A stretch of DNA of 64,000 bases, from NCBI RefSeq assembly GCF_037935975.1, contig NZ_CP149817.1, forward strand, positions 3,844,001-3,908,000, written 5' to 3'. Shown in pieces: positions 39,265 to 53,466 of this stretch; position 1 is the first letter of the stretch; the number at the start of each line of letters is the position of its first letter. Source of the stretch: Teredinibacter turnerae. Its GTDB lineage: Bacteria > Pseudomonadota > Gammaproteobacteria > Pseudomonadales > Cellvibrionaceae. The notes beneath the pieces are model-generated. The model did not search any database and was not told where the DNA came from. It worked only from the letters and a program-made list of their open reading frames with translations. Made by a program: the position numbers and the translations under genes.

Positions 39265-39394
39265 ACCGATTGACACGAATTTGATTCGTTCTGTTGTGGT
39301 TGAAATTTTGATATTGAGTGAACTGACGCTCCACTATCAATTTAAAAAAACCAGTCTCCAGCAGAGCGAATTAAATTAGTGTTAAAAGGCCCTA
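39265..39394. mobile_element. IS630-type MITE, degenerate copy C
   Basis: The left part (GACACGAATTTGATTCGTTC) and right part (AGCAGAGCGAATTAAATTAG, then TGTTAAAAGGCCCTAA) match the ends of copies A and B with many changes; the middle is deleted, leaving about 130 bp. It begins within a few bases of the glycosyltransferase stop and supplies the C-terminal codons and stop of the truncated integrase on the other strand. Confidence 0.75.
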
Positions 39395-39920
39395 ATAATT
39401 CGTGAGCAACAGTCACGGCAGGATGATTCCCTTTGCCATTCCAAACTCTGATAGAGCAGCATTCAAAATCAATATCATGCACAAGCAGTCGCACAGCCTC
39501 CATAAGCCTAAGACCACTGCCATACAATAAAGCCGCTGGTAAAAAATATACGGGCGATATACGCTCAAGCAGTGCTCTAACTTCAGCAGTAGTTAGCACA
39601 ACGGGTATCTTCCTTGGAGAACGGCGGTGAACAAAACTCAGCGTTTGAGAAAGCGGCATCTTGATGATATCGCGATATAAAAAGCTCAATGCATTCAATG
39701 CGAACGCTTGTGTTTGAACGGCAACATTCCGTTCCAAAACCAAGTATCTTAGAAACTTTTCGACCTCCCCGTCTCCCATAGACGCAGGATGCCTTTTGTT
39801 ACTGTAAAGAATAAAACGCCTAATCCACAAGAGATAGGAACCAATCGTACGCTTGGCGTAACGCCGCTGATGCATATAATCCTTTATAGACTTGAGAAAA
39901 GGCGAACGATCCATATTCAT
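39342..39920 (-). pseudogene. intI: integron integrase IntI, C-terminally truncated
   Basis: A 192-residue tyrosine recombinase N-terminal part with integron-integrase character: QTQAFALNALSFLYRDIIKM, SFVHRRSPRKIPVVLTTAEV, and LLYGSGLRLMEAVRLLVHDI, which carries the first catalytic Arg138. A full IntI has about 320-340 residues. The second catalytic box (HxxRH) and the Tyr are missing: after about residue 175 the frame runs into MITE copy C and stops. It is therefore predicted inactive. It faces away from the cassette genes, the classical integron layout. Confidence 0.82.
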
Positions 39921-40826: not shown

Positions 40827-42326
40827 CTACACAAGGTTGGTATTCCAAGGTAATAAAGCTTTAACATCCTCAATGCTATGCGCATTGGGTAGCTCTTTAA
40901 AAACGTGAGTTAAATAATCGTAGATATTGAGTTTATTAGCTTTAGCGGTTTCGATTAGACTATAGAGGTTTGCGCTGGCTTTCGCCCCTGCCTGACTTTT
41001 ACTAAACAACCAGTTCTTACGGCCAATGGTAAATGGCCTGATGGCGCGTTCAGCAGCGTTGTTATCCATCGGATATCGACCGTCCTCCAGATAGGCAACC
41101 AGCCGGCCCCACTGATTATTGAGATACACCAACGCCTTACCAATCGCCGTTTTTGGTGGCACGGTGTTCAGGCTCTTTTCCATCCAGTCTTTGAGTTTTT
41201 TGAGGACAGGTGCAGCTTCTTTGTGTCGAATCGCAAAGCGTTTATCGGGCGGTTTGTCTTTTATACGTTTTTCGATGGCATAAAGACGCCGTATAAAGGC
41301 CAGTGCTTGATCCGCTTTGCCGGTTTTTCCCTTTTTCTGGAGATCTTGCGCCTCTTTAAACTTACGCCGGGCATGCGCCCAGCACCCTAAGCGCGTAATA
41401 CCGTAGTCGTCACAGGCTTTTTGATACCCCTCATAACCATCAACCATAATGGCGGTGTTTTCGGCACTTAATAGGTTAAGCGGGATCTGTTGGCCGCGAC
41501 TGTCTGCGTAATGGAAGATGCATGCGGGTTGTTCACCGTCATGTGCCATGACCCACATGTAACTTTTGCTCTGAGCGGTTTTACCCGGCTCATCCAGCAC
41601 TTGTAGCGGCGTTTCGTCCAAGTGAAGGTAGGTTTGCTTATGCAGATGCTCAATCAACAGGTTGATCAAGGACTGGACCAGCTCACCACATGTCACCATC
41701 CAGTTTGCCATGTTGGTGCGATCCAGCTCGATACCGATACGTTTGAACATCTCGCTTTGGCGGTACAGTGGCAGTGCATCGCCGTACTTCTGCACGGCGA
41801 TAAACGCGAGTAAACCGGGACTGGCAATACTTTTTTCGATAGGCTGTTTGGGTTTAGCGGCTGTAACGATGTGGCCCTCACAGCAGGGGCAGGCATACTT
41901 TAATCGCTTATGCCGGATGACTTTGATCGTTGCGGGAACGATGTCCAGCTGTTCATGATCGTCGCTGCCAATATTTTTTAACGTGCTACCATCGTGCGGG
42001 CAGACTTTCTCCGATTCGGGGATATCGTGAATAATCTCTTCGCGTGGAAAGTGATCAGGAATGCTGACGCGGGGTTTTCGTGTACGGGTGTGGCCTTTAA
42101 CCGGGGTGGCTTCTGGTTCTGCTTCCGCGACGTCCTCGGCCAGAACATCTTCTGCTTCGTTAAATAGGCCCAATTGATCGGGTGAGCTTTTTTCGCTGGA
42201 TGCGCCAAAGCGTTTTTTAAAGAGCTTTTTAAGCTGCTCGTTGAAAACAGAAATCTGGGCATCACGCTCCGCTAATTGCGCGCGTAATAGCGCGTTTTCT
42301 TTTTGTAAATCAGCCACTCGATTCAT
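40827..42326 (-). CDS. tnpC: IS66 TnpC transposase
   Basis: A 499-residue IS66 transposase. An N-terminal leucine-zipper-like helix (LQKENALLRAQLAERDAQIS), a zinc-binding region (KVCPHDGSTLKNI ... YACPCCEGHI), and the DDE catalytic domain: Asp in HLDETPLQVLDE, Asp in MVDGYEGYQKAC, Glu in NNAAERAIRPF. The frame is intact, so the element may still be active if its ends function. Confidence 0.95.
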   Translation of the reverse strand: MNRVADLQKENALLRAQLAERDAQISVFNEQLKKLFKKRFGASSEKSSPDQLGLFNEAEDVLAEDVAEAEPEATPVKGHTRTRKPRVSIPDHFPREEIIHDIPESEKVCPHDGSTLKNIGSDDHEQLDIVPATIKVIRHKRLKYACPCCEGHIVTAAKPKQPIEKSIASPGLLAFIAVQKYGDALPLYRQSEMFKRIGIELDRTNMANWMVTCGELVQSLINLLIEHLHKQTYLHLDETPLQVLDEPGKTAQSKSYMWVMAHDGEQPACIFHYADSRGQQIPLNLLSAENTAIMVDGYEGYQKACDDYGITRLGCWAHARRKFKEAQDLQKKGKTGKADQALAFIRRLYAIEKRIKDKPPDKRFAIRHKEAAPVLKKLKDWMEKSLNTVPPKTAIGKALVYLNNQWGRLVAYLEDGRYPMDNNAAERAIRPFTIGRKNWLFSKSQAGAKASANLYSLIETAKANKLNIYDYLTHVFKELPNAHSIEDVKALLPWNTNLV

Positions 42327-42347
42327 GGAAGCTATTATACAGAATAC

Positions 42348-42704
42348 TTAAGCAACGTCGGTAAAATGGAGGGCGTGATGGGGTTTAAAGTTGCGATAAT
42401 CAAAGCCGCGTAACAGCCAACACCACTGCTCGTGAGTAAGCGTCACCGTAGAAAAGCGATCTTTGCGAGGCCATTTGAACTTGTCCCGCTCAAGACGCTT
42501 TTGCCAGAGTGCAAAGCCGGTTTGATCCCAGTAGAGCACCTTAAGCTGTGACCGGCTTTTGTTGCAGAAGACGAAAAGCGCGGAGCTGTACACATCCTGC
42601 TCCATCGATTCACTCACAATCACCGCCAGCCCGTTGATGGCCTTGCGGAAATCGACGGGATCACGGTGCAGATAAATGGGGATAGAATCTGGCCAATGAA
42701 TCAT
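42348..42704 (-). CDS. tnpB: IS66 TnpB accessory protein
   Basis: A 118-residue IS66 Orf2: IPIYLHRDPVDFRKAINGLA, ALFVFCNKSRSQLKVLYWDQ, and GFALWQKRLERDKFKWP. I start at ATG 42704, which overlaps the tnpA stop as ATGA, the translational coupling usual for IS66. A longer reading upstream is not supported. Confidence 0.92.
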   Translation of the reverse strand: MIHWPDSIPIYLHRDPVDFRKAINGLAVIVSESMEQDVYSSALFVFCNKSRSQLKVLYWDQTGFALWQKRLERDKFKWPRKDRFSTVTLTHEQWCWLLRGFDYRNFKPHHALHFTDVA

Positions 42705-42985
42705 GCCAGCGCTTTTACCAGAGCGACGAATGAGGGAATTGGCATGGTGCTGGGGCACAGGATTTTACAATGGCCAATGTGTAAAACCAGGCTGGTCGTG
42801 TACTCAACCTCAGGTTGTACAATCGCTTTCGCGAAAGGGCTACTCTCAGAGGCTTTGCGCTTTGAAAGCTTCAAGCTGAAGTACTTCGGAGTGATTCCGT
42901 GCTGTTTACAGAATTCTGTTTGCGACAGGCCTGATTGCTCATAGTCAGAAAAGAGCTGGGGCCAGTTGTACTTTTTGTTGGGCAT
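42701..42985 (-). CDS. tnpA: IS66 TnpA accessory protein
   Basis: A 94-residue IS66 OrfA. The helix-turn-helix-like N-terminus reads LFSDYEQSGLSQTEFCKQHG and ITPKYFSLKLSKRK. It is required for IS66 transposition together with TnpB and TnpC. Start ATG 42985 has GGAG 6-8 nt upstream. Confidence 0.88.
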   Translation of the reverse strand: MPNKKYNWPQLFSDYEQSGLSQTEFCKQHGITPKYFSLKLSKRKASESSPFAKAIVQPEVEYTTSLVLHIGHCKILCPSTMPIPSFVALVKALA

Positions 42986-43065
42986 GAGGGCTCCTTGTTA
43001 GATGGAGCCTTTACGTTACATTAACTTTTAAAGTCTGGGTAGGGTGTGGTTCGTTTGGCGCTTAC

Positions 43066-46490: not shown

Positions 46491-46730
46491 ATGGTATTTA
46501 TTGCTGGCGACGATGATTTGACTGACGATTTTAATGAAGCGGCAGAATCGCAATCTTGGGAAGCGGGGGATTTGACTGACGAGTTTAATGAAGCGGCAGA
46601 ATCGCAATCTTGGGAAGCGGGGGATTTGACTGACGAGTTTAATGAAGCCGCCAGTGAAGAAGAGTCTGAAGATAACCCTGATGATTTGGATCTCGATTTG
46701 GATCCTCCATGGGATGATTTCGATATGTAG
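46491..46730 (+). CDS. small acidic protein with three 18-residue tandem repeats
   Basis: A 79-residue, very acidic protein. The unit DLTDEFNEAAESQSWEAG occurs three times (the third diverges after NEAA), followed by an Asp/Glu-rich tail ending PPWDDFDM. The DNA repeat unit is 54 bp and units 1 and 2 are almost identical, so the array expanded recently. No signal peptide. It is convergent with the phosphorylation operon on the other strand, 75 bp away from the nearest minus-strand frame. Function unknown; the repeat looks like a short linear docking motif. Confidence 0.55.
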   Translation: MVFIAGDDDLTDDFNEAAESQSWEAGDLTDEFNEAAESQSWEAGDLTDEFNEAASEEESEDNPDDLDLDLDPPWDDFDM

Positions 46731-46804: not shown

Positions 46805-47089
46805 TTAATTGTTAAAAACTTTGTTTATAAAAATTTTAAACTGCATTTTAATGACAGAAAACCATTTTATTTTAGTTGAGTAGGGGGTTGATGGCGCTCT
46901 TTCTCTCGATTTTTTATTTACTATTTTAGTAACGTAGTTTTCATCCGATAAATTGATAGTGTTCTGACTCTGTTTATCAATTGGATAAGATTTGTGTCGA
47001 TTTATTGACTCGGATACGGCTGCTTTTAGTTCCATTCGGTATTTTTTAAGTCGTCTTCGCGAAGATTCGAGATCTTTTTGTAAAACCAT
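46805..47089 (-). CDS. small basic hypothetical ORF at the end of the phosphorylation operon
   Basis: A 94-residue Lys/Arg-rich frame overlapping the last 64 nt of the MotB-like gene. The N-terminal half is a charged helix (LESSRRRLKKYRMELKAAVS). It could be a real sixth gene read by coupling, or a C-terminal extension separated by a frameshift. No family recognised. Confidence 0.35.
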   Translation of the reverse strand: MVLQKDLESSRRRLKKYRMELKAAVSESINRHKSYPIDKQSQNTINLSDENYVTKIVNKKSRERAPSTPYSTKIKWFSVIKMQFKIFINKVFNN

Positions 47090-47619
47090 TTTTCTATTAA
47101 CTCTATTTGTTTGGATTCGATAGACGCGGGTCTATGTAAATCAACAAAAAAAACACATTCCTTTGAGTCGGAAAGCTCCTTAATATTTTGACCAATCTTG
47201 GCGAATTCTTTTTGACTCATGGAGCCAAGTCTAATATTTTTTGTGATCTTTTTAAATTCATTGCTCCGGTAATCGGGAGCGGCAGATTCAACGAATAGTG
47301 AATCTTTTTCTATTATTTTTACTCTAAATAAAAATTCTATCGAGTTTGAGGGTGAAGTCCAGCACGAAGGTTTTCCTCGAGCCTTTTTTAAAACTTGAGC
47401 CAGATAAATATTTTCTTTTTTTAGCTCTTTGATATGGTCGGCATCTGTGTCAATCTTTTCTTTTAATTTCAAAATCTCTTTTTCTAACAGAATTGCTTGG
47501 GTCTCATTATCTTTTTTTTGCTCCAGTAAGCTTGCAATAAAAATTAATAAAATGAACAATACTATAAAGCTTTGTTCTGCCAATGTCATACCTAATATAG
47601 GGTTTTTAAGGCTGCTCAC
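47026..47619 (-). CDS. MotB/ExbD/ZorB-like single-pass membrane protein
   Basis: A 197-residue protein. Residues about 16-32 form a membrane helix (SFIVLFILLIFIASLL) preceded by Glu15, roughly where ExbD and MotB have their proton-carrying Asp. A coiled coil at 35-80 and a C-terminal domain of about 100 residues (IEFLFRVKIIEKDSLFVESA, CVFFVDLHRPASIESKQIEL) follow, likely outside the membrane. It overlaps the upstream ExbB/MotA-like gene by 4 nt, so the two are co-translated. Topology and pairing suggest the MotB role; sequence identity to known families is not visible by eye. Confidence 0.55.
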   Translation of the reverse strand: MSSLKNPILGMTLAEQSFIVLFILLIFIASLLEQKKDNETQAILLEKEILKLKEKIDTDADHIKELKKENIYLAQVLKKARGKPSCWTSPSNSIEFLFRVKIIEKDSLFVESAAPDYRSNEFKKITKNIRLGSMSQKEFAKIGQNIKELSDSKECVFFVDLHRPASIESKQIELIEKWFYKKISNLREDDLKNTEWN

Positions 47620-48908
47620 GCTTGATCTTTTATCCTATTCGCTAGCTCTTTTGCTGCAGATGCTAAGTCTACCATTATTGCGTTTAGGTGACCCTGTGCT
47701 TCGTAAATGGCGCTTGCGTGATCTTTTCGAGCACTTTCAACCAAACTGCTATATTTTTCAACTTCGCTTGTGATTTTCTCAACCGCTTTAGTTGCCGCGA
47801 GCACGTTTTTTGGAACATTTTGTGTGTTTTCTAATACGGAGAATAAGCTAGATTCAATTTTTTCTGCGATATTTAAGAAATCATAGGATTTGCTCATCTT
47901 ATTTCTAATATCATCCAGATTGATGTCAAACTTATGAGTATTCTCGATGACTTTAGACATCGCGATATTGAATCTTTCAATATCCCCCTTGACCATTCCT
48001 AAATGGCTGGAAACACTACCAACTTGATCATTTAGCATGCTAGTTGACTTGTGAAGCTGTTTTGTTTCATTTTTTGTTTCTTCTGTCGATTGTAAAATAT
48101 TTGAGTTTGCATTGTGCATGCTTGCACCAAGCTGCTTTAGCTCCTCTTTGATCGGATCTGTTAGCTTGGATAGGTTATCTTTGAAATCCGTTAAGCCCGA
48201 AGTTGCAATATCTTGGAGGTGAAAAGATGTTTTTTCAAAGGTGGTTTTCTGGGCTTCACTAAATGTTTGATAAATAGACCTTATTTGATCAAATGAATCG
48301 TTTGAATCTTCGGAAAAGTCTTTCAGGGCATCCGTTAGTTTGGTTTTTAATGATGAAATTTCGGGTTCAAACTCACTCATTACAAGGTTTTGAATGCCTT
48401 CTCGCTCGTGTACTATTGTGTCAGTTAGGTTAACTATTTCATTCTGAAGTTGGTTTAGTTTCGCTGATGTGTCTTCAAATTTTTGAGTAAAACTTTCCAG
48501 CGTATTTTCAATTTTTTCAGTCAAATCCTTACTGTTTTGTGGCTTTTTGTATTCAAAGGTTGTAAGTAGAACTCTAAATATTAGTCCATAGATAGTGGTA
48601 AACAGCGCGATCGCGAAGCTACCTATGATAGAGGATATTTGGAGAGTATCTTCGTTTAATGAGGCGAGCCCAGAAGCCATAGATATTAATGTAAATATAA
48701 ACCCCAAAAAGTACATTGAGTCTGCCTTCTGTTCATTTTCGAGAGATATAGAAGACATATATGAAAGGACAAAAAAGAAGATTGTCATTATTCCAGCAAG
48801 GATAATAGAAGTAGCAAAACCTTGAAAAAATTGCGCTGGTCCTAAAATGATATAAGCGCCTATTGTTACTGCGGTAATAAACGCGAAAGTAGGATTTATG
48901 GTCAACAT
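47616..48908 (-). CDS. ExbB/MotA/ZorA-like membrane protein with long coiled-coil tail
   Basis: A 430-residue protein. Four hydrophobic segments at about 6-23, 31-52, 65-84 and 91-117; the last (GSFAIALFTTIYGLIFRVLL) resembles the conserved third/fourth helices of MotA/TolQ/ExbB. From about 125 to the end it is a continuous heptad-rich, Ser/Thr/Lys/Glu coiled coil of 300 residues, which would project into the cytoplasm. A MotA-like channel with a long cytoplasmic tail is the hallmark of ZorA of the Zorya defence system. Here its upstream neighbour is a protein kinase. Confidence 0.6.
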   Translation of the reverse strand: MLTINPTFAFITAVTIGAYIILGPAQFFQGFATSIILAGIMTIFFFVLSYMSSISLENEQKADSMYFLGFIFTLISMASGLASLNEDTLQISSIIGSFAIALFTTIYGLIFRVLLTTFEYKKPQNSKDLTEKIENTLESFTQKFEDTSAKLNQLQNEIVNLTDTIVHEREGIQNLVMSEFEPEISSLKTKLTDALKDFSEDSNDSFDQIRSIYQTFSEAQKTTFEKTSFHLQDIATSGLTDFKDNLSKLTDPIKEELKQLGASMHNANSNILQSTEETKNETKQLHKSTSMLNDQVGSVSSHLGMVKGDIERFNIAMSKVIENTHKFDINLDDIRNKMSKSYDFLNIAEKIESSLFSVLENTQNVPKNVLAATKAVEKITSEVEKYSSLVESARKDHASAIYEAQGHLNAIMVDLASAAKELANRIKDQA

Positions 48909-48912
48909 AGCT

Positions 48913-50178
48913 TCAATTAATGGTTAATATTTTGTAATGATTACCTTCTATTGAAATTGTCATGCCCGTCATAAGTATAATTGATGCTGTCGGAGCGATG
49001 TTTTTAACCGTTTTGTCGGGAAGGTATGCTTTCCAAGAAGACTTAGAAATATTTTTTAACCCAATTTCATTGCGCTTTCTTGGATGATTGACCACTAAGC
49101 CTAATCCTTTATTTCCAAGAAAGTGTTTGTCTACTTGAAAAACCATTCCTTCAGTAAGTAGTACTTTTCTTTCGTCAAAGCTAATTTCGCAATGGCGGCG
49201 TAGTTTGTTTCCGCACGTATCGCATATGTCGGTATTTTCTGCACAAAAGAGCGTTTTACAATGAGAACATCGCACAATATTGTCTTGAAATTTGATTAGC
49301 GCTTTAACCCATGTGCCATCCGTAGTTCTTTCTTTAGGGTTATGTGCACCATCAACAAACGTCTTATAAAATAGCTTTCGCATGAAAACTGGAAGTCGAT
49401 CCCAGTTTCGAGCAGGATTGGTGTCTTTTGGTAAAGTGTTTTTATGATCGCTACCAAAAATAAATTTCGGTTTCGTGGCGTAGAAGGCACGTTCAGAGGT
49501 ATCATTTACGAGATTAATATCTTCCCATAAGGCACCTTGATAAGGGTGATGGCGCACTAATGTGTAAAATAGTAAGACGGCTAACGAATGATAATCGCTA
49601 TAGCGAGTACATGTAGTTTCTTCAAGTATTACTTCCGGCGCTGCGAACTCCGGGAAATATAATCGCTCACCGTTTGGGTCATTATCTATTCTAACATTGT
49701 CGCAGTCGCAAATAACAACTTCACCAGTTTTTGTGTCCAACGCAGGACCACCCAGATTGAGGTCTTTGTACACTAGGCCCTGAATGTGAAGATTAAAAAA
49801 TGCTTCACAGACGCTCCTGCACGCGAAAATTAAAGTATCCAGTTGAGGTACTGGCTTGACGCGCCCTTGAACTAGCTTTTCCCAGGACGAAAATCGAGCC
49901 TCTCTGAGTGGCATAACGTAACCAAATTGGTCGACATGCTCCACATAATTTGCCGGCCAAAGGAATCTATTATCTGGCGAATTTCGTTGCGTCACCTCTT
50001 CACTTAGAGCGACTTTTGTTTCTTGTGAGACAGCGTATGGAAAAAGCAGTTTAAGAGCTAAATGGTTTTTATTGTCGTCAGTGACTTCGTATACAATGCC
50101 TTGTCCGCCCTCACCTAGGAGACGAACTAACTTGTAATTATTCTTTTGGAAAGAAATAGTTGAACCTATTTGTAGCAT
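48913..50178 (-). CDS. Ser/Thr protein kinase with zinc ribbon
   Basis: A 421-residue kinase. Glycine loop LLGEGGQGIVYEV (21-32), Lys43 in ALKLLFP, catalytic Asp139 in LVYKDLNLGG, metal-binding Asp158 in CDCDN (DFG replaced by DCD), and AAPEVILE. A four-cysteine zinc ribbon follows (C304, C307, C319, C322: CSHCKTLFC ... DICDTCGNKL), then a C-terminal beta-rich domain of about 90 residues. It belongs to the kinases found with TerY-like vWA and PP2C proteins. It lies 6 bp after the PP2C gene and 4 bp before the membrane-protein gene. Confidence 0.85.
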   Translation of the reverse strand: MLQIGSTISFQKNNYKLVRLLGEGGQGIVYEVTDDNKNHLALKLLFPYAVSQETKVALSEEVTQRNSPDNRFLWPANYVEHVDQFGYVMPLREARFSSWEKLVQGRVKPVPQLDTLIFACRSVCEAFFNLHIQGLVYKDLNLGGPALDTKTGEVVICDCDNVRIDNDPNGERLYFPEFAAPEVILEETTCTRYSDYHSLAVLLFYTLVRHHPYQGALWEDINLVNDTSERAFYATKPKFIFGSDHKNTLPKDTNPARNWDRLPVFMRKLFYKTFVDGAHNPKERTTDGTWVKALIKFQDNIVRCSHCKTLFCAENTDICDTCGNKLRRHCEISFDERKVLLTEGMVFQVDKHFLGNKGLGLVVNHPRKRNEIGLKNISKSSWKAYLPDKTVKNIAPTASIILMTGMTISIEGNHYKILTIN

Positions 50179-50184
50179 AGTAAT

Positions 50185-51915
50185 TTAACCTTTAGTTTTT
50201 AGTAATGTTTCAAAAAGGTTCTTCCAATTTTCCGAGCTTGGTCTATTTTCTGGTGCAAATAAGCCTTCGCTAAATGTTTTAATGAAATATTGTTGTGCTT
50301 CTAAGGGGATTCCGTTCCAGTGTGGCAAGCTTCTCCAGTGGTTTAAAAGGTCGACACCATGTTTTTTATGGTCAAAAGAAGCACTATCAAACTTTCTTGT
50401 TGGAGAGGGGTGCCGGCCAACCCAAGTCCAGAATAATAGAACCGCTAACGCGTGATTTTCAGAATGGCGATTATACTTTCCCATTTGTTTTTTTGATATT
50501 TCCGGAGCTAAAAAACGGGAGTGAATATTTGGAGAGCCAATACTATTTTCTTTTCGGATGCTAACGAGTTCAGATATTTTTATATTTCCCTGTTTTGGGT
50601 CGAACGAAAAACTTCTTAATTCGAAACTTCCAAAAACTAGTCCAAGCGCGTGAATATATGAAAAGGCTTCACATAAATTTGCAAGTGCATTCATCAATAT
50701 TCTGTTACTCATTTTGGATTTTGCTCGCCCTCCCCATGGAATAAATCTAGTTTCTAGCGTAGGTGTGATATATATAAAAATATTGTTTTTCCAAAAGGAT
50801 TTAATCGGCCAAAGAAATAAGTCGAAATTAGCTTTATCTAACTTAGATAAATCTACTTCGTAACTTTTTCTTTCGTTGAATGTGCATAGCCTAAAAGTTT
50901 TGCCACTTTCATCTTTTACCTTGTAAAGGCCGCTTTTTGAGTCTTCATAAATTACTCCAAGTATTGTATATTTGCAGTCATCGTCTGAAGTTACTACGTC
51001 TCCTTCAGTATAGATTTTATGGTTTTTTGTTTCGCTTGAAGATGTTTTGTTTATATTGGCTGGGATCAGATTTCGATCTGTTTTTTCGTCGTTGTCGTTA
51101 TTGAGGTTTTTCTTTCTCCATACAGCTAATGCAAGGGATACGTCGTCACCACTTGTCTCTTCAGATAATACGCAAAGTCTTCGAGGAAGTGCGGCGATTG
51201 TTTTGATCCAATTATCACAAGAGGCATTGTATAGATTTTCCCCCATTTCAATTTGAAAGTCCTCTATCGAATCAAAAGGATCGTAAATTCCATCGCTAAC
51301 GAGTAGACATAACTTTATTTTCGGGTCTCGTTCTACACAAAAATCGCAATAGTCGGCGATGTTTGATTGTGATAAAGACAAAGTAGTACTGTTTGGTTTG
51401 TTTTTTTCTGATTTAAATTTAAGAAGGGAATTTTGATTTTCTTCAGAAACTAGAATCGCGCCATCTCCGATTTGTAGGAATACAGCGGTGGTCTCTGAAA
51501 AGCCTGCTGCGAGTAATGTAGTTCCATATTTCTTTAATGTTACATCTTTCGTAATGTCTAAAGGTTTGTTAAATAGCTCATGCTCAAGCTTCGCGTGTTC
51601 CAAGACTGTTCTATCCCACATCGTCTTCACTTTTTTTGGAAGCTGGCGCTCTTGAGGAACCTTATTTTTTTCGAGAAACTCTTTTAATAGCCTTACAGCT
51701 ATCTCTACTGCAAAGAGAGAACCATAGTGGCTATTTTCATGAAGGGAGCCTCCATGACCATCCGCTACTGCTAGTACCGTAATATTTTTATTTTTGTCGA
51801 CTACTGATCTGGCACAATCTTGGTTCGTCTTGCCATTTTCGGTAATATGAGAATGTCCCGGTAAAGAAATTGAAGTTACGTTGGGTAATTTCTGAATATA
51901 CATGTTTTTTAACAT
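50185..51915 (-). CDS. PP2C phosphatase fused to a degenerate kinase domain
   Basis: A 576-residue fusion. Residues about 12-270 are a PP2C phosphatase: GKTNQDCARSVV, AVADGHGGS (52-56), LQIGDGAIL, LLVSDGIYD, and GDDVSLAL, all metal-binding Asp present. Residues about 300-576 align along their length with the neighbouring kinase, but the catalytic loop reads GLVFGSFELRSF (Asp lost) and the DFG-equivalent reads SELV. A pseudokinase is therefore predicted, perhaps binding the partner kinase. The short linker is Ser/Asn/Lys-rich. It starts at ATG 51915; MYIQ four codons later is an alternative. Confidence 0.85.
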   Translation of the reverse strand: MLKNMYIQKLPNVTSISLPGHSHITENGKTNQDCARSVVDKNKNITVLAVADGHGGSLHENSHYGSLFAVEIAVRLLKEFLEKNKVPQERQLPKKVKTMWDRTVLEHAKLEHELFNKPLDITKDVTLKKYGTTLLAAGFSETTAVFLQIGDGAILVSEENQNSLLKFKSEKNKPNSTTLSLSQSNIADYCDFCVERDPKIKLCLLVSDGIYDPFDSIEDFQIEMGENLYNASCDNWIKTIAALPRRLCVLSEETSGDDVSLALAVWRKKNLNNDNDEKTDRNLIPANINKTSSSETKNHKIYTEGDVVTSDDDCKYTILGVIYEDSKSGLYKVKDESGKTFRLCTFNERKSYEVDLSKLDKANFDLFLWPIKSFWKNNIFIYITPTLETRFIPWGGRAKSKMSNRILMNALANLCEAFSYIHALGLVFGSFELRSFSFDPKQGNIKISELVSIRKENSIGSPNIHSRFLAPEISKKQMGKYNRHSENHALAVLLFWTWVGRHPSPTRKFDSASFDHKKHGVDLLNHWRSLPHWNGIPLEAQQYFIKTFSEGLFAPENRPSSENWKNLFETLLKTKG

Positions 51916-51926
51916 TCCATGACGTA

Positions 51927-52658
51927 CTAAAAAATCATATCTTCATCTTCTATTTGGCTCGAGGCATGATCTAGTGCGTCTTTTATCGTGGAATCCATAT
52001 CTTTTGTATTTGAGGAGCTGTTGATTTTACTCACAGTGACAGTAGCCAGTTTTATATACTCTTTCAGCTGGGTGCTATTGTTAGCTTCTAATACTAGCTC
52101 TGGATTCCCGGTAAACATCTCAAGTGTGCGCTTCGCTTCGCCTTCCTGAGCGTCATTGCCAATCGCAATTGCCATTCGAACACTTCGCCCTTTTTGTCCC
52201 CAAGGTAGTTGATTCAATTCGTCGATTTCTTTTCTCCAAGTGTCGTCGGTTGGGCCTCCATCGCTAACTAGAAGAAGTACAGGGGGTTTATTCTTTTTCC
52301 CCATATTCTCTTCAGTCAACTCATCTCTCAACAATCGAATCGCTGCTCCGAGGTTAGTTGCTCCTTCTATTTCAAGGTCATTCCATTGGTAGTCACGCAT
52401 AGTTTGAACTGGAATGTGCCAACTAGCTTCAGATTCGAATTTTATTACTCCTATGTTCATTTCCACGAAAGCGTTAGCATCGTGAAAATCCTTTAACATA
52501 AACTCGCATTCTTTCATTGCGGCATTTAGTGATTGTATTTTTCCGTAAGCTCCCATGGAGCCAGAGCAATCTGCAAGAACTATTATCTTTAGAGTTGCTT
52601 TGCTCACCCCTCCAAATCTGTCCGTTTCCTCTTCGTAGTTGCCCAAAATGTTATTCAT
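51927..52658 (-). CDS. TerY-like von Willebrand A domain protein
   Basis: A 243-residue vWA protein. Metal-ion site DCSGSMG (31-37), GATNLGAAI, and LLVSDGGPTDD complete the MIDAS. It lacks a signal peptide or membrane segment, so it is cytosolic, and ends in an acidic tail. It starts at ATG 52658 with AGGAG 6 nt upstream. As the first gene of the operon it has the TerY-P arrangement (vWA, PP2C, kinase), known to accompany tellurite/stress and phage-conflict systems. It would be expected to bridge the kinase and phosphatase. Confidence 0.88.
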   Translation of the reverse strand: MNNILGNYEEETDRFGGVSKATLKIIVLADCSGSMGAYGKIQSLNAAMKECEFMLKDFHDANAFVEMNIGVIKFESEASWHIPVQTMRDYQWNDLEIEGATNLGAAIRLLRDELTEENMGKKNKPPVLLLVSDGGPTDDTWRKEIDELNQLPWGQKGRSVRMAIAIGNDAQEGEAKRTLEMFTGNPELVLEANNSTQLKEYIKLATVTVSKINSSSNTKDMDSTIKDALDHASSQIEDEDMIF

Positions 52659-53466
52659 AGCTTGCTCCTAAGGTTGGTTTTTCAGGGATGTAGTAAATAT
52701 TCACCTACCTTCAGATTCTTTCGGCGGTGCGTATAAAATTCATACCTAGGGTAACTAAAGGTGTACAACCCATAGTTAATCACTCTTGCTCATTCTATTT
52801 GGGCGTCCAAGTTGGTGCGATTGCACAATCACTGAGCGTTGCTGGCCGTGTTATATTAAAAATCTGACTAAAGACTGAACCCCTGGTGTGGCAAACTTGG
52901 ATTAGCTCTCGCAAATTTAAAATTAATCATAAAATACAAAGTATGCAAAAAATGTGTCAATAGAATGACATTTCGGGCCACTCTCATTTGCTAAATATTC
53001 GGTTATATGTTGATTGAATATTAAAGACTACTTGCCGTTTGCGCTCTTGTCTACACCCTTTCTTGTTTTCCTCAACAGGAAGCCAGCTGAATTTTAAGAC
53101 TAACTAGGTTTCTTGATCTTCGGGTTTGTATTCTCTTCTTTTTTCTCCATCAAGATAATCCCATCCTAGGGCTACTGCTTTCTTACATGTAAAATACCAA
53201 TTTAGAGAAAAAGTATTTGAGTTCCAGGTTTTGTCACTATTCTCATATATCCCGTTTGTGGATAGGGTGTCGTTCGTTTGGCACTTACAAAAAAAACCTG
53301 AAAAATTCGCCATATCAGGAGTTAACCCTACGACCCCACTGAAAGGATTATTAAAAATAATATAGCTTTAAGAGAAATGTGTAAGTATGGGTATGAAGTA
53401 CAATTTTAGGGCGAGAGCAACCACTGGACTGAAACGGTGGCGGATAAATCGAAGGTGCTTTTGAGT
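52659..53466. promoter_or_regulatory. upstream region of the phosphorylation operon
   Basis: About 800 bp, AT-rich. On the minus strand a possible promoter reads TTGTAC, 18 nt, TATGAA near 52740-52770. A 69-residue minus-strand frame at 53104-53313 (NTFSLNWYFTCKKAVALGWD) has no family likeness or good ribosome site. The word GGGTGTCGTTCGTTTGGCAC at about 53270 resembles the IS66 right end (GGGTGTGGTTCGTTTGGCGC), so an IS66 end remnant may lie here. Confidence 0.35.

Follow-up and report, generated by a model that had tools for sequence, protein, structure and literature searches.

A zinc-ribbon TerY-P-type triad in one operon with a minimal MotA/MotB-like membrane pair in Teredinibacter turnerae

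Two described kinds of bacterial system come closest to the locus studied here, five minus-strand genes in a 64,000-nucleotide stretch of Teredinibacter turnerae DNA (the window; contig NZ_CP149817.1, positions 3,844,001 to 3,908,000). The first is TerY-P, a triad of a von Willebrand factor A (vWA) protein, a PP2C phosphatase and a Ser/Thr kinase (STK). The form with a zinc ribbon on the kinase is described for CoCoNuT II and III-A in the accessible text of PMC11090510, where TerY-P figures as an add-on module of CoCoNuT systems. TerY-P is reported to be active against T7-like phages (PMC7699616), and the TerY-P defence system of PADLOC consists of TerY, PP2C and STK_OB (Gao et al. 2020, via PMC11090510 and PMC7699616). 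The second is Zorya, for which the accessible text of PMC11890865 describes a ring of ZorA Ser/Thr residues enclosing a ZorB Asp, the dependence of defence on this residue, on the ZorA tail and on binding to peptidoglycan, and, in Zorya II, the bringing of the effector ZorE to the membrane by ZorAB upon infection.

As the original prediction had proposed, the five genes (Table 1) form a tight operon, with gaps of 11, 6, 4 and -4 nt from gene 1 to gene 5 and all five frames intact, in which a TerY-P triad is followed by a MotA/MotB-like pair. This anatomy and the residues that the proteins keep are firm. Tentatively, and with rather less than even confidence, we interpret the locus as an acquired composite operon in which a TerY-P switch would feed a minimal MotAB-type ion-driven membrane unit, most likely in defence against phages or mobile elements.

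Table 1 Position of the operon genes and of the mobile-element features in the window
Feature	Position	Strand	Description
Gene 1	51927..52658	-	243 aa TerY-like vWA protein
Gene 2	50185..51915	-	576 aa PP2C phosphatase with C-terminal kinase-like domain
Gene 3	48913..50178	-	421 aa Ser/Thr kinase with C-terminal zinc ribbon
Gene 4	47616..48908	-	430 aa minimal MotA/TolQ/ExbB-like A subunit
Gene 5	47026..47619	-	197 aa MotB/ExbD-like B subunit
Truncated tyrosine integrase, Phage_int_SAM_4 domain	39342-39920	-	Sole integron-like trace found
IS66 genes	40827-42758

Judged by their sequences, genes 1 to 3 are a TerY-P triad of the zinc-ribbon type and not of the STK_OB type of PADLOC. The gene 1 protein matched Pfam VWA_2 (1.9e-11), has no hydrophobic segment and carries a complete metal-ion-dependent adhesion site (MIDAS; D30, S32, S34, T101 and D133), invariant in 8/8 aligned sequences. 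The gene 2 protein contains a phosphatase domain at residues 20-220 (PP2C_2, 6.1e-30), and its PP2C acidic residues D52, D151, D208 and D257 are invariant in 7/7. Its C-terminus resembles a kinase, with a Pfam Pkinase match over residues 398-562 (2.1e-4; 21.2 bits, under the cut-off of 31.7) and a match of residues 318-565 to the gene 3 protein (30% identity, 1e-17). As no catalytic-loop Asp was seen in the sequence of this domain, we classify it as a putative pseudokinase. The gene 3 protein matched Pkinase (8.4e-13) and, weakly, a zinc ribbon (0.062), of which C304, C319 and C322 are invariant in 3/3; K43, D139 and D158 are retained in an alignment of three sequences. Its catalytic loop has a Gly instead of the Asn found in the Methylomonas and Prevotella relatives (also in PDB alignments). 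The kinase Asp139 and the vWA MIDAS, both singled out beforehand, are thus present and conserved in aligned relatives, as is Glu15 of the MotB-like protein. A PDB sequence search at 0.01 returned no match for gene 1 or for the PP2C part of gene 2.

The window triad shares the vWA/PP2C/STK-zinc ribbon operon and the kept MIDAS and PP2C residues with the described zinc-ribbon TerY-P, and it is homologous to triads of Methylomonas, Prevotella and IMG/VR contigs. It differs in the pseudokinase domain of its PP2C protein, in the Gly of its kinase and in preceding a MotA/MotB-like pair. With the PADLOC TerY-P it has the same three activities in common, but its kinase carries a zinc ribbon where STK_OB has an OB fold, and the PADLOC models for TerY, PP2C and STK_OB gave no match.

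Genes 4 and 5 are, on sequence grounds, a MotA/MotB-like pair, a reduced relative of the ion-driven flagellar motors, that retains the ion-path residues T73, T105 and E15. Gene 4 matched Pfam MotA_ExbB (2.1e-5; 24.7 bits, cut-off 22.9) over profile positions 58-126 of 127 only, and among the 16 PF01618 places of the genome it is the weakest (22.9 bits). The match covers the TM3-TM4 channel region of MotA/TolQ/ExbB A subunits and leaves the first 57 profile positions unmatched. Four membrane helices are predicted (6-22, 30-50, 58-85 and 91-117), with no large loop between TM2 and TM3, followed by a tail of about 300 residues predicted, at low confidence, to be helical. D63, T73, T105, G108 and R112 are invariant among relatives, T73 and T105 in 14/14 A subunits, and hhalign placed these two threonines on Thr-containing transmembrane motifs of MotA/TolQ/ExbB-type proteins of the same genome (71%, E 3.7e-5; comparison set of nine of the 16 PF01618 places).

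Gene 5 had no meaningful Pfam match (best 0.01, under the cut-off) and was identified through a family alignment and its single hydrophobic segment (7-36). Its one membrane helix bears E15, invariant in 13/13 and 10/10 rows of two overlapping alignments, and is followed by a coiled coil and a periplasmic domain with invariant P84, C86, F139 and C155 (two-cysteine, PxC family). Foldseek returned nothing below E 0.001 for the model of either protein; the matches of the MotA-like model were mostly helical bundles on the low-confidence tail, and we base no claim on them.

The pair had been called Zorya-like, a label that we do not retain. With Zorya, genes 4 and 5 share the MotAB-type core ion-path residues and a long A-subunit tail: the Ser/Thr ring and the acidic B residue are matched by T73/T105 and E15, a Glu where ZorB has an Asp. 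However, gene 4 lacks the large cytoplasmic loop, and gene 5 lacks the OmpA/peptidoglycan domain and has the different, conserved two-cysteine domain instead. Pfam gave no OmpA match to gene 5 at E 10; OmpA-like domains were likewise not listed by VIA-align for its structure model, which proves nothing alone. None of the five genes is a ZorC/ZorD or ZorE-type effector and no nuclease is present among them. Gene 4 scored 18.8 bits against NCBIfam ZorA_1 (cut-off 190), its ZorA similarity lying essentially in the tail, and for gene 5 PADLOC returned no ZorB up to E 1. Searching 115 genomes of the order with the PADLOC ZorA model was uninformative, as the controls also went unmatched. By their own features, genes 4 and 5 are not Zorya.

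To place the pair, profile searches with the A subunit covered 292 other genomes of the order, 273 of the class and 213 of the phylum, as well as GTDB contigs; the E-values of these surveys come from small sets. Relatives were found in 5/292 and 1/273 genomes of the order and class. At E 1e-5, 30/213 phylum genomes passed, and the channel region was covered in three of them only (G784, G691 and G795); the other 27 matched from model position 131 on, that is, in the tail alone, and were dropped. The GTDB contigs gave 262 candidates, of which 247 were confirmed as A loci, and the best 80 of these were taken. As the GTDB scan pattern demanded a 'YY' motif that is absent from the window A protein, window-like members may have been missed. 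The single-protein search with gene 5 confirmed nothing in genome contigs, nor in plasmids (E 0.01), and gene 4 had no match among phages.

The original prediction named its own counter-case, in which most homologues of the pair would stand beside other neighbours, and this is largely what we observed. Among the 85 loci L022-L106, which were not freed of duplicates (one clade, mostly rhizobial, holds 52 of the 82 distinct tree rows), 79 carry both a membrane-anchored vWA-like gene and a TM-coiled-coil gene no more than 4.5 kb from the A gene. Three of the six exceptions are at contig ends (L051, L068, L081), two have other partners (L026, L083) and one has none evident (L033). Loci L134 and L167-L169 add 4/4, bringing this four-gene operon to 83/89 homologue loci, many of them rhizobial and alike. 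It encodes, in this order, a TM-coiled-coil protein of mostly about 460-540 aa, a membrane-anchored vWA-like protein of about 260-330 aa, a minimal MotA and a MotB, the last with either an OmpA domain or a two-cysteine domain. The aligned rhizobial B subunits carry the OmpA domain according to annotation and alignment; the two-cysteine domain occurs in gammaproteobacterial, campylobacterial, some alphaproteobacterial and other members. In the tree, the window A subunit falls, on a long branch, within a 15-row set (95/81) whose branches are long, and the B subunits of this set have the PxC domain where examined (L081 left out). The last two genes of the four-gene operon are homologous to window genes 4 and 5, while its first two are absent from the window and have the TerY-P triad in their place. 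A kinship of its second protein with the TerY vWA protein was unsupported (hhalign 0.6%, no Pfam match), and 'vWA-like' refers to the motif only. The survey shows the pair to be part of a MotAB family in which the A subunit is minimal and the B subunit often has a two-cysteine domain. Several of the four-gene loci adjoin a thermonuclease-like gene.

One of the exceptions, L026, has a DUF4011/AAA helicase with an MTES_1575 nuclease domain immediately 5' of the A and B genes, which in PADLOC matched PDC-S37 (3.7e-276) and Hhe (6.4e-175). The whole resembles a Zorya-like set carried by a mobile satellite. The same stretch (L026:1080-12351) holds a 169-aa gene after MotB, and a VapE/RepB-type primase gene adjoins.

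In the survey from the triad, the kinase profile at E 1e-25 matched 2/292 other genomes of the order and 9/377 of the phylum. Gene 2 went unmatched at E 1e-10 in the 368 other genomes of the class that were covered, and a single-protein kinase search of viral contigs confirmed nothing. Twenty triad loci were compiled (12 loci, with 3 more from plasmids and 5 from IMG/VR), six of which are cut by contig ends (L120, L121, L123, L124, L147 and L150), and L150 repeats L148. In L125, L127, L130 and L131, the triad is succeeded by three large genes; in L125, the one tested, the first encodes an MkoA-like helicase (3.2e-95). As a guess, these neighbours may resemble the CoCoNuT gene order. TerD-like genes were seen by eye in L126 and L129. 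The IMG/VR contig L148 has BREX-like PglZ and BrxL just upstream of the triad with one 121-aa gene between, the triad of L149 comes after a type IIG restriction enzyme, and L147 is on a phage contig that encodes a terminase and a portal protein. In a further locus (L122:3954-10078), a methyl-accepting chemotaxis receptor gene lies between the vWA and PP2C genes, and an FGE-sulfatase gene follows the kinase.

The operon has a GC content of 0.378, compared with 0.517 in the left 39 kb of the window and 0.463 at its right end. The mobile surroundings expected from the original prediction were found, namely the truncated integrase, the IS66 genes and a Y1-type transposase gene; its decayed integron stands as far as the truncated integrase and IS66 genes go, while a crude motif scan found no attC site. 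The operon and these mobile elements lie between flagellar/glycan genes and ordinary metabolic genes. The A gene was unmatched at E 0.001 in all seven other genomes of the genus (0/7), where a second MotA match (L002) looked by eye like a phosphate-transporter-type protein and was dropped as a non-relative. On account of this AT-rich, mobile setting and of the missing A-gene matches within the genus, the five-gene stretch looks like horizontally acquired DNA. It lies between two 30-nt direct repeats (43036-43065 and 53259-53288; 90% alike, 10.2 kb apart), which may mark the ends of an inserted segment. Promoter-like sites were not above those of shuffled sequence (20 vs 18.8), and no terminator-like site was seen downstream of the operon. 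Convergent with the operon end is a very acidic 79-aa open reading frame (ORF) with 18-aa repeats (46491-46730, plus strand), inside which lies a 54-nt DNA repeat (46515-46676). A basic 94-aa ORF (46805-47089, minus strand) overlaps the end of gene 5 and is a possible sixth gene, without a convincing relative. The AT-richness of the operon and the lack of an A-gene match in the seven other genomes of the genus also speak against a function outside defence, as an envelope- or metal-stress energiser in which a TolQR/ExbBD-like force unit would be controlled by phosphorylation. With no TolA/TonB-like gene among the five and some relatives near defence genes, we consider such an energiser quite unlikely.

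If the triad gates the membrane unit, five A and two B subunits would form a stator-like unit. At rest, PP2C would be docked on the kinase through the pseudokinase domain and would keep phosphate off the long cytoplasmic tail of the A subunit or off a partner bound to it. Infection, or a metal or nucleic-acid signal read by the vWA protein and the zinc ribbon, might then shift the kinase/PP2C balance, and phosphorylation would free the ion path of E15, T73 and T105. Growth could then be stopped, or the triad brought to where the attack takes place, either by the entering ions or by the turning tail. We favour this order in view of the modular, regulatory nature of TerY-P and of a kinase that seems too weak to act as a toxin. 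Its main rival is the Zorya order, in which the pair would sense an envelope disturbance and the turning tail would recruit the triad, the kinase/phosphatase being the output, with no ion-leak effector. That order has a precedent in the delivery of ZorE by ZorAB in Zorya II (PMC11890865) and a parallel in L026, where the pair directly follows an effector-like helicase-nuclease. The gene 3 kinase, however, lacks the catalytic-loop Asn, and the B subunit lacks an OmpA-like domain for the peptidoglycan binding that Zorya needs, so that we regard the Zorya order as unlikely.

Gating by the triad in a defence operon draws on the operon spacing, the low GC content, the kept PP2C, MIDAS and ion-path residues, the Zorya analogue, the reported activity of TerY-P against T7-like phages and its role as a CoCoNuT module, the triad relatives by PglZ/BrxL and by a type IIG enzyme, the L026 helicase-nuclease and the TerY-P sets of two pair loci, L078 and L168. 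In these 2/96 loci, a TerY-P set of the PADLOC type forms a gene set of its own near the four-gene operon, 3.5 kb away in L078, a Pseudomonas metagenome-assembled genome (TerY 1.3e-171, PP2C 3.6e-100, STK_OB 4e-252), and 3.8 kb away in L168 (PP2C 1.4e-76, STK_OB 6.3e-188; the vWA gene is cut by the stretch end and was matched only to the L078 vWA). Such divergent sets escape the window triad as query, which found 0/85.

Several results weigh against this reading. The conserved co-occurrence that had been anticipated for all five genes did not emerge from the neighbourhood survey: a second five-gene operon was found in 0/96 pair loci and 0/20 triad loci, leaving one instance only; a window-type triad in 0/96 pair loci (E 1e-3; L006 and L052 coincide); and a MotA/MotB-like match in 0/20 triad loci, six of these being cut short by contig ends. 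With 83/89 pair homologues beside other partners, the five genes are not shown to be a conserved system. In PADLOC, the vWA, PP2C and B proteins of the window matched nothing (the first two up to E 1), gene 4 reached only low ZorA scores (best 2.3e-5, residues 111-387), and the gene 3 matches to mad6 (5.6e-13) and PD-T4-6 (1.1e-11) are read as general kinase similarity. The missing catalytic-loop Asn makes the activity of this kinase doubtful, phosphorylation of the A tail is hypothetical, and a defence role is suggested by neighbours and analogy. When 126 flanking ORFs were scanned with PADLOC at E 1e-20, without a control, a minority matched, one ORF per family (30 families, 25 of them shown), including type IIG restriction, BrxH, AbiLi, OLD/GajA-like, a DISARM methylase and the L078 triad, and also families of different function such as RtcR and WYL; this content fits defence islands and is not a measured enrichment. 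Seen from this side, two mobile cassettes might have been fused by chance without joint function, each half having other partners in the loci examined and the combination being seen once. Yet only 4 nt separate genes 3 and 4, the five frames are intact and the PP2C, vWA, A and B proteins retain functional residues; the tight operon and the proximity in L078 and L168 speak against pure accident, which we rate as the least probable of the explanations considered.

No operon of TerY-P with a MotA/MotB-like pair was found in the accessible open-licence literature, in agreement with the original prediction, although an earlier mention is possible. Each half is of a known kind; what is new is the combination, in a single instance, and the minimal MotAB family. 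In a broader and somewhat unlikely reading, the locus would be a new kind of immune device in which kinase, phosphatase and vWA protein act as a switch that gates a minimal rotary ion-driven membrane unit, from a MotAB family that is plugged into different partner modules (the vWA-like/coiled-coil pair, the helicase-nuclease and the TerY-P triad). Should this hold, a stator-type membrane motor would be under the direct control of reversible phosphorylation in conflict systems; no such link was found in the accessible open-licence literature. Were the joint operon to prove a single case, the pair would still represent a MotAB family in a recurrent four-gene operon, the tested members of which were unrecognised by PADLOC 2023 (only low ZorA, best 2.9e-7, ZorB, best 8.2e-6, and coiled-coil scores), and because this operon recurs, the four-gene family is directly testable.

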